A DNA stretch of 64,000 nt, taken from contig NZ_CP038231.1 in assembly GCF_006542395.2 (NCBI RefSeq), positions 1,240,001-1,304,000 on the forward strand, written 5' to 3'. This DNA comes from Formicincola oecophyllae. Lineage in GTDB: Bacteria; Pseudomonadota; Alphaproteobacteria; Acetobacterales; Acetobacteraceae. Below the pieces are notes generated by a model. It was given only the letters and a program-made list of their open reading frames with translations, did not search any database and was not told the origin of the DNA. Positions 55,892 through 58,931 of the stretch are shown here, piece by piece. How positions within the stretch are numbered: the stretch's first letter is position 1; the number at the start of each line of letters is the position of its first letter. The translations under genes and the position numbers were made by a program.

Positions 55892-56003
55892 AGGCCAACC
55901 TGCTAAGGTTGGGGCACAGTGGGTTCCAAAGAGGGCCTATCAAATGAGGCACAAAGGGTTGCGGCGCTCGTCCCAGCCCTGCATGTGAAAGGGAGTGGCC
56001 ATC

Positions 56004-56723
56004 ATGACCAGCGCAGCCGCCAACAACGCCATGAGGCGTAAATGGAAAACCGTTACCGTGGCGCCTTCAAGCGCTGATCCAAGCCGCAGCGGCCCAGCTT
56101 TGGACGGCAAATTGGTGAAGCTGCCCAGTGGCAGCGAACTTGCCGTTTCCTCCCCAGCTTTGGCCCAAGCGCTGGCTGACGAATGGGCGGCCATCGCGCC
56201 TGACGCTCCCCTGACCCCAGCTGACCTGCCGCTGACGCGCATCACCGGCAACCGCCTTGACCGCATCGCCCCGCACATGGACGGCACGCGCGCAGCCCTG
56301 TTCAAATACGGTATTGATGACGCGCTGAGCTACCATTCAGACAAGCAGCCGCCAGAAGCTTTGGGCAAAGCGCTGAAATGGGCTGATGGGCAGGGCCTGC
56401 GCCCCACCCCCACTGAAGGGTTGATGCCGGTGGAACAGCCTGATGACTACAAGCGCAGGCTCACCCGGATTTTGGAGAGTAAAAACCCTGATGAGCTAGC
56501 AACGCTTGGTGTCCTGGCGCCAGCCTTGGGCAGCCTCCTCATTCCCTTGGCGTTGCTGGATGGTGCCATCACCCCTGCTGAGGCCATCAGTCTGGGCACA
56601 GCTGATGAACGCGCCCAACTTGCTGAATGGGGCCATGATGATGAACTGGCCAAGCGCATCAAGGACAATGAGCAGGACGTCCATGACGCCTTGAAATACC
56701 ACCAGCTGACCACAAGGAACTGA
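56004..56723 (+). CDS. ATP12-family F1-ATPase assembly chaperone
   Basis: ATP12 proteins help assemble the alpha subunit into F1-ATPase; bacterial members are largely restricted to alphaproteobacteria, matching mitochondrial ATP12. The 239-residue protein shows LDGKLVKLPSGSELAVSSPALAQALADEW, PLTRITGNRLDRI and the helix around ALFKYGIDDALSYHS. GGGAG lies eight bases before ATG 56004, favouring it over GTG 55995. It is last in the plus-strand run and is followed by a bulged hairpin at 56726. Confidence 0.88.
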   Translation: MTSAAANNAMRRKWKTVTVAPSSADPSRSGPALDGKLVKLPSGSELAVSSPALAQALADEWAAIAPDAPLTPADLPLTRITGNRLDRIAPHMDGTRAALFKYGIDDALSYHSDKQPPEALGKALKWADGQGLRPTPTEGLMPVEQPDDYKRRLTRILESKNPDELATLGVLAPALGSLLIPLALLDGAITPAEAISLGTADERAQLAEWGHDDELAKRIKDNEQDVHDALKYHQLTTRN

Positions 56724-56797: not shown

Positions 56798-57643
56798 TTA
56801 CTTGTGGAGGTAGGCCATCAGCTTGGGGAGTTCTTCTGCAAGGGATTTTTCGCGTGGTTTCTGCAGGTACTCAATGGCGCCCAGGCTGTCCCATTGGGCA
56901 CCTTGCCGGTTGAGGGATGGTTCCAAGGTTTCCATCAGGATGGATTCAAGCGTGGTGATAAGGCCGTTGGCCTGCAGGGGCGCGCTTGTTTTCTCCAAAT
57001 GGGGTGGGGACTGCTCATCCCGCTGGACCACACCATAAAGGCCAAACCAGGAAAACCTGTCCCAACGCCCACTCAGCCTGTCCCTGGTGTGGTCCAGAAG
57101 ACGCCTGCCAAGCGTGGCGTTGCTTTTGTTGGTGCCTTTGCTTTTGTCTGAGTTGCCAGCTTGGCCTGCATAAACGGCCTTGGCGCCATCATAAAGGATG
57201 TAGACGCCGACCTCCTCGCTGAAGTCAACGCTTTGGCTGGCCCCCTGGGCTGTTCCCACCAGACGTGGTTTGGCGCCCCTCCAGTCCACCCAAGCGCGCC
57301 GCCAGAACATGCCAAAAGCCTTCACCCCGCCGGCATCCTCAGTTGCCTGGGGTTGGGTGGGTTCAAGCTTTGCCAGGGCAGCTGGACGTTTACTTGGCGT
57401 AGTTGTGCTGGGGGTTGCAAGGCGCCAACGGGTGGGGCGGTTGCCTTCACTGGCCACGGCGCCAGATGGCTGCAGTTGGGCGTAGAGCTGCGCATTGATG
57501 GTGGCTTCAGGGGTGGCGCCCGTCAGTGTGCGCAACCCTTTCTGCTTGATGGTGGCTGCAATCTCCCCCACCGTTGCAGGCTGGCACAGCGCAAGCGCCT
57601 TCAAGATGGCTTCAGACCAGTTCTGCGAAGGGGTCTTGCCCAT
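56798..57643 (-). CDS. HARE-HTH domain plus GIY-YIG nuclease protein
   Basis: The 281-residue protein joins two recognisable domains. Residues of about 8-75 form a HARE-HTH winged helix (NWSEAILKALALCQ, GEIAATI, TGATPEATINAQLY), a module found in chromatin proteins and restriction enzymes and proposed to sense modified DNA. Residues 145-248 form a GIY-YIG nuclease: GVYILY (146-151), VYAG (157-160), Arg181 and His185 in LGRRLLDHTRDRL, and the metal-binding Glu233 in LESILMETLEPSLN. All key nuclease residues are present, so it is probably active. A Thr/Pro-rich linker joins them. It starts 14 bases after ispF with its ribosome binding site over the ispF stop, so it is coupled to the isoprenoid genes. 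No methyltransferase is adjacent. Confidence 0.8.
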   Translation of the reverse strand: MGKTPSQNWSEAILKALALCQPATVGEIAATIKQKGLRTLTGATPEATINAQLYAQLQPSGAVASEGNRPTRWRLATPSTTTPSKRPAALAKLEPTQPQATEDAGGVKAFGMFWRRAWVDWRGAKPRLVGTAQGASQSVDFSEEVGVYILYDGAKAVYAGQAGNSDKSKGTNKSNATLGRRLLDHTRDRLSGRWDRFSWFGLYGVVQRDEQSPPHLEKTSAPLQANGLITTLESILMETLEPSLNRQGAQWDSLGAIEYLQKPREKSLAEELPKLMAYLHK

Positions 57644-57657
57644 GGTGCTGGCCCTTT

Positions 57658-58170
57658 TCAGTCCTCGTCTGGCAGCAGGACGCTGACAGTCGCCAGGCAG
57701 GCCATGCCTTCACCACGCCCGGTAAAGCCCAGCTTCTCCGTTGTGGTGGCCTTGACGGAAATGCGCTTTGCGCCAACCCCCAGCAAATCAGCCAGGCGGG
57801 CGCGCATGGCTTCTACATGGGGGCCAATTTTGGGGCGCTCGCAAATCAAGGTCAGGTCGGCATTGGCCAGCCGGCCACCATGGCTTTTGATGAGCGCGCC
57901 TGCATGGCGGAGGAAACGCGCTGAATCCATGTTCAGCCACGTGTTGTCGCTGGGGGGGAAATGCTTGCCGATGTCACCTTCGCCCAGCGCGCCATAAATG
58001 GCATCGCAAAGGGCATGGATGCCCACATCAGCGTCAGAGTGGCCAGCAAGGGCATGGCTGTGGGGCACTTCCACGCCGCACAGCATCAGCTTGCGTCCTG
58101 CATCCTTGGTGAAGGCGTGGACATCATAGCCCAGGCCACTGTGGGCAATCAGGGGGGTGGGTGCAGTCAT
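57658..58170 (-). CDS. ispF: 2-C-methyl-D-erythritol 2,4-cyclodiphosphate synthase
   Basis: IspF is the fifth enzyme of the MEP isoprenoid pathway, forming the cyclic diphosphate with release of CMP. The zinc ligands are in GLGYDVHAF (Asp16, His18), the [19 protein letters not shown] signature is complete, and the C-terminal [17 protein letters not shown] carries the substrate-binding Thr and Glu. The start overlaps the ispD stop (ATGA). The protein is 170 residues. Many alphaproteobacteria fuse ispD and ispF; here they are separate but translationally coupled. Confidence 0.96.
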
Positions 58171-58931
58171 GAGGGCATTCCTTCATCGGGGGAGGGGGGC
58201 TGGGCGCCGTCAGCCAGCAAGCGCTCAAGCCGCCTGAGGTCACTGGCCAGTGTGAGCTTGATGTTGTTTTCATCGCCAGCAACCACATGGACGGGGTGGT
58301 TCTGGCGTTCCAGCAAAAGCGCATCATCAGTGCAAGGCGCGTCAAGGTCGCGGTGAAGCGCCAGCAGAAGGGGGAAAGCAAATCCCTGCGGCGTTTGCGC
58401 GCGCCACAACCCAGCGCGCGGGACGGTGCCCGTGATAACGCCATTCTCCACCTTTTTAAGGGTGTCGCTGACGGGAACCGCTGGGATGACGCCAGAAGCC
58501 CCGCCAGCCAATGCGTTGATGACGGCTTTCGTAACAGCGTTTGGCACGTAAGGCCGCGCACCATCATGCACCAGGACAAGATCAGGGGGCTGGGCCAAGG
58601 CCGCCAAGGCCTCCAGGCCAGCGCGCACGCTGTCTTGGCGTTCAGCGCCGCCTGCCACGGCAGGGCGCACCTTGTCGGGGGGCAGTCCAGCCAAGGCCTG
58701 CTCCAGGAGGGGGCCAGTCCCCACAGGCTGCAGCACATCCACATGGGGCAGCAGTGCCTGGGCCGCATGGCGCAGCACGGGTTGGCCAGCCAACATCACG
58801 TACTGCTTGTCAGGCGTGCCTGGCCCTGCGCCAGCCGCAAAGCGGCGCCCCCGCCCCGCAGCCAGCAGAAGCGCCGCCACGCGGAGCCGCGGGGCTTGTG
58901 GGGGGGGCGTGGTGGTGGGTTTGGGCTGCAT
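58167..58931 (-). CDS. ispD: 2-C-methyl-D-erythritol 4-phosphate cytidylyltransferase
   Basis: IspD transfers CMP to methylerythritol phosphate, the third MEP-pathway step. The nucleotide-binding loop [12 protein letters not shown], the [14 protein letters not shown] segment, [11 protein letters not shown] and the TPQGFAF segment are conserved. The N-terminus has about 15 additional Pro/Thr-rich residues. It heads the ispD-ispF-nuclease unit on the minus strand, with GGAAAA upstream of ATG 58931 as a possible ribosome binding site. apaG lies 84 bases upstream on the same strand. Confidence 0.94.

Follow-up and report, generated by a model that had tools for sequence, protein, structure and literature searches.

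A predicted HARE-HTH/GIY-YIG fusion nuclease encoded beside ispF, interpreted as a candidate stand-alone, modification-dependent restriction enzyme

The window, a stretch of 64,000 nucleotides of Formicincola oecophyllae DNA that was analysed as a whole, carries on its minus strand an intact open reading frame for a protein of 281 residues, P0001, with its ATG at 57643 and its stop codon ending at 56798 (Table 1). The frame begins 14 bases after ispF (57644–57657; ispF ends at 57658), as the initial annotation had stated, and no methyltransferase gene adjoins it, the flanking genes being ispF and a convergent ATP12-like gene. GC content (0.600, against a mean of 0.620 with an SD of 0.020) and codon usage (23rd among 47 ORFs) give no compositional sign of recent transfer, no flanking repeats stand out around the gene, and no promoter-like match was found at it, with terminator-like matches at chance level. 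The AlphaFold2 model of the whole protein (mean pLDDT 82) places a low-confidence linker between an N-terminal and a C-terminal domain.

Table 1. Position of the fusion gene, its parts and its neighbours in the window.
Feature	Position	Strand	Basis
HARE-HTH/GIY-YIG fusion protein P0001, 281 aa	56798..57643	-	ORF, Pfam HARE-HTH, relatives, model
N-terminal HARE-HTH winged helix (predicted), about residues 6-77	57413..57628	-	Pfam, model, VIA-align
Linker, low-confidence, about residues 78-106	57326..57412	-	pLDDT <50 at 81-83, 85-87, 98-101
GIY-YIG domain (predicted), residues 107-262; G146/Y148, Y158/G160, R181, H185, E233, N245	56858..57325	-	relatives' profiles, conservation, fold
ispF, upstream neighbour, outside the system	57658..58170	-	PF02542 4.7e-62, TIGR00151 7.3e-59
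ispD, 4-base overlap with ispF, outside the system	58167..58931	-	PF01128 7.8e-54
ATP12-chaperone-like gene, convergent neighbour	55995..56723	+	PF07542 5.9e-15; synteny

The N-terminal domain is matched by PF05066 (HARE-HTH) over residues 11–58 (E 5.9e-8; 33.4 bits against a curated cut-off of 25.9), the sole Pfam match of P0001 above cut-off. Residues 6–77 are predicted by the AlphaFold2 model to form a winged helix, with helices at 9–19, 25–34 and 45–57 and a strand at 73–75, and a mean pLDDT of 87–92 over residues 11–50 and 56–78 over residues 51–80. Profile match and model together uphold the N-terminal HARE-HTH winged helix of the initial annotation. Aligned by VIA-align with linker-histone winged helices, the reader (residues 6 to 76 or 77) reaches at best Z 6.6, a middling score, with H1.0 (rmsd 2.5 over 62 residues). 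The name HARE-HTH in Pfam derives from HB1, ASXL and restriction endonucleases; human ASXL1 has been linked to leukaemia, and the reading of modified DNA by this domain is a proposal in the literature consulted.

HARE-HTH is matched at E up to 0.01 by 80 of the 84 members that we aligned. In two Kocuria proteins (L080 and L085), RAMA, itself another proposed reader of modified DNA in the sources available, stands where HARE-HTH would be (E 3.8e-18 and 5.9e-10), and at two further loci (L028 and L074) reader-like residues are encoded 5' of the nuclease with stop codons in frame. The PADLOC model PDC-S14 (PDLC04921) is matched by 5 of the 84 members; when ten members were compared with it singly, only the two RAMA proteins matched, through their RAMA part. 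P0001 itself is, judging from its residues, a divergent member: of the positions strongly conserved in the family it retains 13 of 18 in the N-terminal portion and, in the nuclease, 44 of 56. Since the five N-terminal departures include an HY pair conserved in the family's reader, which is T24-V25 in P0001, its reader may be altered; if the pair contacts DNA, the mark recognised by P0001 may be another one, or its binding may be weaker.

The C-terminal half of P0001 matches no model in Pfam, NCBIfam, PHROGs or PADLOC, and no Pfam GIY-YIG model matches P0001 at E up to 1. Its assignment depends on relatives, which were aligned in 84 rows made up of P0001, L002, L004, L015 and the best 80 of 120 loci from a genome scan. 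At E up to 0.01, GIY_YIG_2 is matched by 19 members of this alignment and GIY-YIG by five, the best being the plasmid protein L015 (GIY-YIG, 28.0 bits against a curated cut-off of 22.6; E 2.6e-6). The residues expected of the active site are nearly invariant: G146, Y158, G160, R181 and H185 are kept in all 84 rows and Y148 in 83, E233 in all 83 filled rows and N245 in 82 of 83. Conservation of this kind across phyla is not chance; the catalytic set that had been called intact is so at all eight named positions.

Fold comparisons gave weak scores. Because a search with the model of the complete protein brought up chiefly winged-helix entries, the nuclease half was modelled separately (AlphaFold2, pLDDT 88.3). 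Foldseek gave nothing under E 0.3 for this half, the best row (E 0.31) being unrelated, and a profile search of solved structures put GVY, YVG and the arginine in register with UvrC, weakly (E 0.16). In VIA-align the half aligned with UvrC-N (Z 3.6, rmsd 3.7, 71 residues), T4 EndoII (Z 3.3, rmsd 8.3, 92 residues), Hpy188I (Z 2.9, rmsd 7.8, 83 residues) and Eco29kI (Z 2.7, rmsd 4.5, 97 residues), in a list interspersed with unrelated folds, two of them above UvrC-N. The GIY-YIG assignment is best regarded as carried by motifs and conservation, via relatives, with the fold evidence supportive only. On these grounds we take the C-terminal half to be a divergent GIY-YIG nuclease, and the fusion of HARE-HTH with GIY-YIG proposed in the initial annotation holds, through Pfam for the reader and through relatives and motifs for the nuclease.

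Does the position of the gene next to an essential isoprenoid operon have a meaning? The initial annotation had coupled the nuclease to ispD-ispF, and the comparison with relatives speaks against this. An ispF match is present in 56 of 60 genomes of the family, the host counted; the nuclease gene occurs in none of 29 relatives' ispF loci, taken by score from the 55 with a match and inspected with flanks of up to 1.5 kb, so that the order ispF–nuclease is absent from every one of them. An ATP12 match lies in the same stretch in seven of the 29 (L102, L103, L106, L107, L109, L112 and L115), and in the best-matching relative, L102, ATP12, ispF, ispD and the next gene follow one another as in the window, without the nuclease and with the ATP12 and ispF matches about 0.1 kb apart. 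Given the 29 empty loci and the adjacency of ATP12 and ispF in L102, the nuclease gene seems to have been inserted, as one gene, between these two in the host lineage, and its placement looks accidental; we reject a meaningful operon coupling. The ordinary composition of the gene implies that the insertion was not very recent or that the donor genome was similar, and the 14-base gap is such that the nuclease may be co-transcribed with ispDF.

Two further observations concern ispF itself. An ispF-bearing ORF stands beside the nuclease gene, in a different orientation, in one of the best 80 of 120 family loci, that of the Rhodocyclaceae bin L045 (5212–7417). This ORF of 470 residues is convergent, has its IspF domain at the C terminus and is separated from the nuclease gene by 4 bases; since its first 310 residues have no IspD match, we refrain from reading it as a fused IspDF. 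In the host, ispD and ispF are separate genes in different frames with a four-base overlap, while in 51 of 55 relatives the ispF match lies inside one open frame of at least 381 residues, as for a fused IspDF. The host pair is possibly a split of a fused IspDF that remained functional.

The family is broadly yet thinly distributed. A scan of a genome collection of 84,980 species confirmed at least 120 relatives out of 166 pattern matches; as the scan used two short patterns, the number is a minimum. The titles of the best 80 of the 120, which were retained, give 14 bacterial phyla and one archaeal bin, with eight of the 14 phyla resting on one or two records and three records giving no phylum; 76 of the 80 match HARE-HTH, the others being the two RAMA proteins and the two with an interrupted reader. 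Closer to the host, the nuclease family is present in 3 of 100 relatives. In the host's family 12 of 397 genomes have a match, which extends over the reader part only in the host's own genome and in G397 and starts at query residue 101 or later in the other ten. A sample of the phylum gave 10 of 398 genomes, and the phylum of G477, the genome of Kocuria locus L085, gave 2 of 296 with G477 itself included. The family is thus rare and patchy in the groups sampled.

The pattern across phyla suggests horizontal transfer, to judge from sequence identities of up to 86.7% over 263 residues between copies assigned to different phyla and from one fusion copy carried by an 8.9-kb Solidesulfovibrio plasmid; since many copies come from metagenome bins, misbinning is possible in single cases. 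A quick tree built from 57 nuclease domains, in which 27 of the 54 inner branches are unsupported, places all the Actinomycetota on one side of a branch, and label changes number four for the four rows of Planctomycetota, four for five of Verrucomicrobiota and three for three of Campylobacterota. Phylum labels change 18 times in all, against 28.7 when shuffled, which means that they are more clustered and that a vertical signal is present as well. Nuclease domains standing alone were found in two Synechococcus phages, four viral contigs and a Methylorubrum megaplasmid. The four viral contigs, from the scan with the mixed alignment A1, match from query residue 92 or 107, outside the reader, and the scan of viral contigs with the fusion alignment A2 gave no relative, and with it no HARE-HTH/GIY-YIG fusion. 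In Synechococcus phage Ssp-JY39, the depositor's note on the stand-alone nuclease (L148 1543–2037) reads 'integron gene cassette protein', and the gene runs in the other direction from the surrounding portal and head genes.

This distribution bears on the question whether P0001 could be a nuclease of DNA repair or recombination, with a winged helix for general duplex binding and a GIY-YIG domain cleaving branched or damaged DNA in the manner of UvrC or Slx1. UvrC-N is among the solved folds listed for the nuclease half, a winged helix like that of linker histones suits general DNA binding, and the composition and codon use of the gene are those of a settled gene. Repair genes, however, are usually widely kept, whereas this family is very patchy in the host's own family; its reader is replaced by RAMA in Kocuria, and no neighbour of any kind recurs beside it. 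We consider a repair function unlikely.

Nor do the related loci point to a partner. When neighbours were clustered into families from simple ORF calls, the most recurrent family occurred in 4 of 80 loci (best 80 of 120), and we reject a conserved partner gene on this count. A scan of 141 immediate neighbours found no Pfam family on more than two of them, and N6_N4_Mtase on one; three others had been set aside because of their length, stops or Ns, and neighbours truncated at a locus end were passed over. Of 133 PADLOC families matched, the 25 listed have one member each in raw counts, and many of their models are type I restriction parts or methylases. Within two genes of the nuclease, only L023 and L024 have several neighbours in common, and with nucleases 99.7% identical they are nearly one and the same locus; four further pairs of loci have one gene each in common, including L028 and L074, where it is one gene in two pieces. 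The copies of the family look solitary. A methyltransferase partner, whose absence had been proposed, is missing beside the window gene, and no methyltransferase family recurs next to the nuclease in the best 80 of 120 loci.

A sequence-specific nuclease, of a type II-like or mobility-related kind in which HARE-HTH supplies sequence binding only, would fit the free-standing domains of phages, viral contigs and megaplasmid. Sequence specificity is known among GIY-YIG enzymes, Eco29kI being an example. An unprotected enzyme of this kind would cut its own host, so the want of a cognate methyltransferase recurring beside the gene counts against it, and we hold it to be quite improbable. The solitary gene and its patchy occurrence would also suit a nuclease toxin of the abortive-infection type, triggered by something besides a DNA mark, as would the loss of specificity with Mn2+ reported for the GIY-YIG enzyme Ahi29725I in the part of PMC11037411 available. 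The lack of a recurring partner gene in the best 80 of 120 loci and the fusion, in 80 of 84 members, to a module predicted to bind DNA render such a toxin very improbable.

Which mark might the reader recognise? C5 methylases (PF00145 over cut-off) are encoded in 24 of 50 carrier genomes, a selection from the best 80 of 120, and in 24 of 60 genomes made up of the host and its relatives, two samples whose phyla were not matched; these enzymes are no less frequent in carriers than among the host's relatives, and the host genome has no PF00145 match. PF02086 is over cut-off in 19 of the 50 carriers. As a trigger, 5mC in any context, which the initial annotation had suggested with 5hmC as an assay substrate, is unlikely on these gene counts, because it would harm about half of the carriers. 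The host genome has three places with N6/N4 methylases, one of them CcrM-like (NCBIfam CcrM model, 2.6e-168 and 559 bits, under the cut-off of 830) and encoded beside an RNase HII gene. CcrM methylates GANTC, and the presence of this adenine methylase makes context-free 6mA an unlikely trigger in the host. The methylase counts argue against context-free triggers only. Context-free 5mC is probably not the mark, nor is 6mA at sites that the host itself methylates; a sequence-specific methylation or a modification of phage type such as hydroxymethyl- or glucosylated cytosine may be.

The CcrM-like methylase of the host (L145 1141–2262) has a C-terminal RAMA domain (47.5 bits against a cut-off of 35.2), the Pfam family that replaces HARE-HTH in the Kocuria nucleases. 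Elsewhere in the host genome (L146 1477–3509; G000:C1 near 1886707), an ORF of 229 residues with a ResIII match (2.2e-23) comes directly after an N6/N4 methylase ORF, and the pair resembles a type III restriction system with a shortened restriction subunit.

What the analysis shows is a pair of domains with a complete catalytic set, conserved in many phyla, in a gene that occurs singly and patchily and has RAMA in place of its reader in Kocuria. We propose, as the somewhat favoured explanation, that P0001 is a predicted stand-alone, single-protein restriction nuclease of a modification-dependent, type IV-like kind. The HARE-HTH winged helix would bind DNA bearing a foreign mark, and the GIY-YIG domain, on its flexible linker, would cut near the bound mark; no methyltransferase partner would be required, since the mark would be absent from host DNA. 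In this model we infer DNA cleavage, dependence on modification and a role in defence alike. That the nuclease stands alone, as first annotated, is supported by the patchy and solitary loci, the copy on a small plasmid and the RAMA exchange. Counted against the type IV-like reading are the weak fold scores (Z 3.6 or less), the altered reader positions, the lack of a fusion in the viral collection, the fact that carriers are not depleted in C5 methylases and the standing of HARE-HTH as a reader of modified DNA, which is a prediction in its turn.

A more specific version, which we put forward tentatively and regard as rather doubtful, is that the proteins form an unnamed, widespread one-gene anti-phage family in which HARE-HTH targets GIY-YIG to a phage-specific mark that is neither ordinary 5mC nor the host's 6mA, for example a cytosine that is hydroxymethylated or hypermodified in another way. 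If this were true, it would offer a direct demonstration of what HARE-HTH reads, since in a nuclease steered by this domain the DNA that is cut would show what the domain recognises. If P0001 is a restriction enzyme, it would add a family of single-gene restriction systems spread over many phyla, one for which neither NCBIfam nor PADLOC v2 gives P0001 a name.

How far does the system go beyond those already described? No model in Pfam, NCBIfam, PHROGs or PADLOC names the whole protein, with no match in NCBIfam and PADLOC v2, and the literature searched on HARE-HTH, GIY-YIG, RAMA and type IV restriction yielded no account of the HARE-HTH/GIY-YIG pairing and no assay of any family member. Such fusions may figure in Aravind and Iyer 2012 among 'diverse restriction endonucleases'. 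The accessible portion of PMC3482391 holds no passage on the pair. The 'undescribed system' of the initial annotation stands as regards this pairing and falls as regards its kind, because modification-dependent nucleases made of a reader and a GIY-YIG domain are known (PMC11037411 and PMC7641849, from the passages available); the HARE-HTH/GIY-YIG pairing fits their scheme and was not found described in the sources consulted.

Among relatives by homology, a protein of 164 residues from Synechococcus phage Yong-M2-251, named 'Endonuclease II' by its depositor, has a homologous nuclease (31.6% identity, query residues 91–261) and is without the N-terminal reader. HARE-HTH joined to REase-fold nucleases has been proposed to discriminate modified DNA, in the excerpts seen of PMC10853773 and PMC12839542, both of which cite Aravind and Iyer 2012; the reader is the same, whereas the nuclease here is GIY-YIG. 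GIY-YIG–RAMA fusions, mentioned in PMC11037411, and EVE–GIY-YIG fusions, reported in PMC7641849, resemble P0001, as far as those passages go, in combining a reader of modified bases with a GIY-YIG nuclease, and the two Kocuria proteins join RAMA to the nuclease domain of the P0001 family; in 80 of 84 members, unlike in those fusions, the reader is HARE-HTH. According to the part of PMC12707154 available, engineered proteins that join the DpnI winged helix to HNH and GIY-YIG domains restrict DNA carrying 6mA.

By analogy of design, the nearest published counterparts of P0001 appear to be the wH-GIY-YIG enzymes of PMC11037411. As described in the available part of that paper, Ahi29725I and Apa233I from Acholeplasma are N6-methyladenine-dependent type IV enzymes that cut near G6mATC in vitro, and among more than 1,000 wH fusions 87% have no methyltransferase within three genes. 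The same source describes HARE-HTH as having an extra helix in its HTH and as more likely a sensor of cytosine modification. Compared by these descriptions, P0001 differs from the Acholeplasma enzymes in that its reader is HARE-HTH instead of wH, and it is like them in placing a winged helix at the N terminus and a GIY-YIG domain at the C terminus, in standing alone and in rarely having a methyltransferase as a neighbour.
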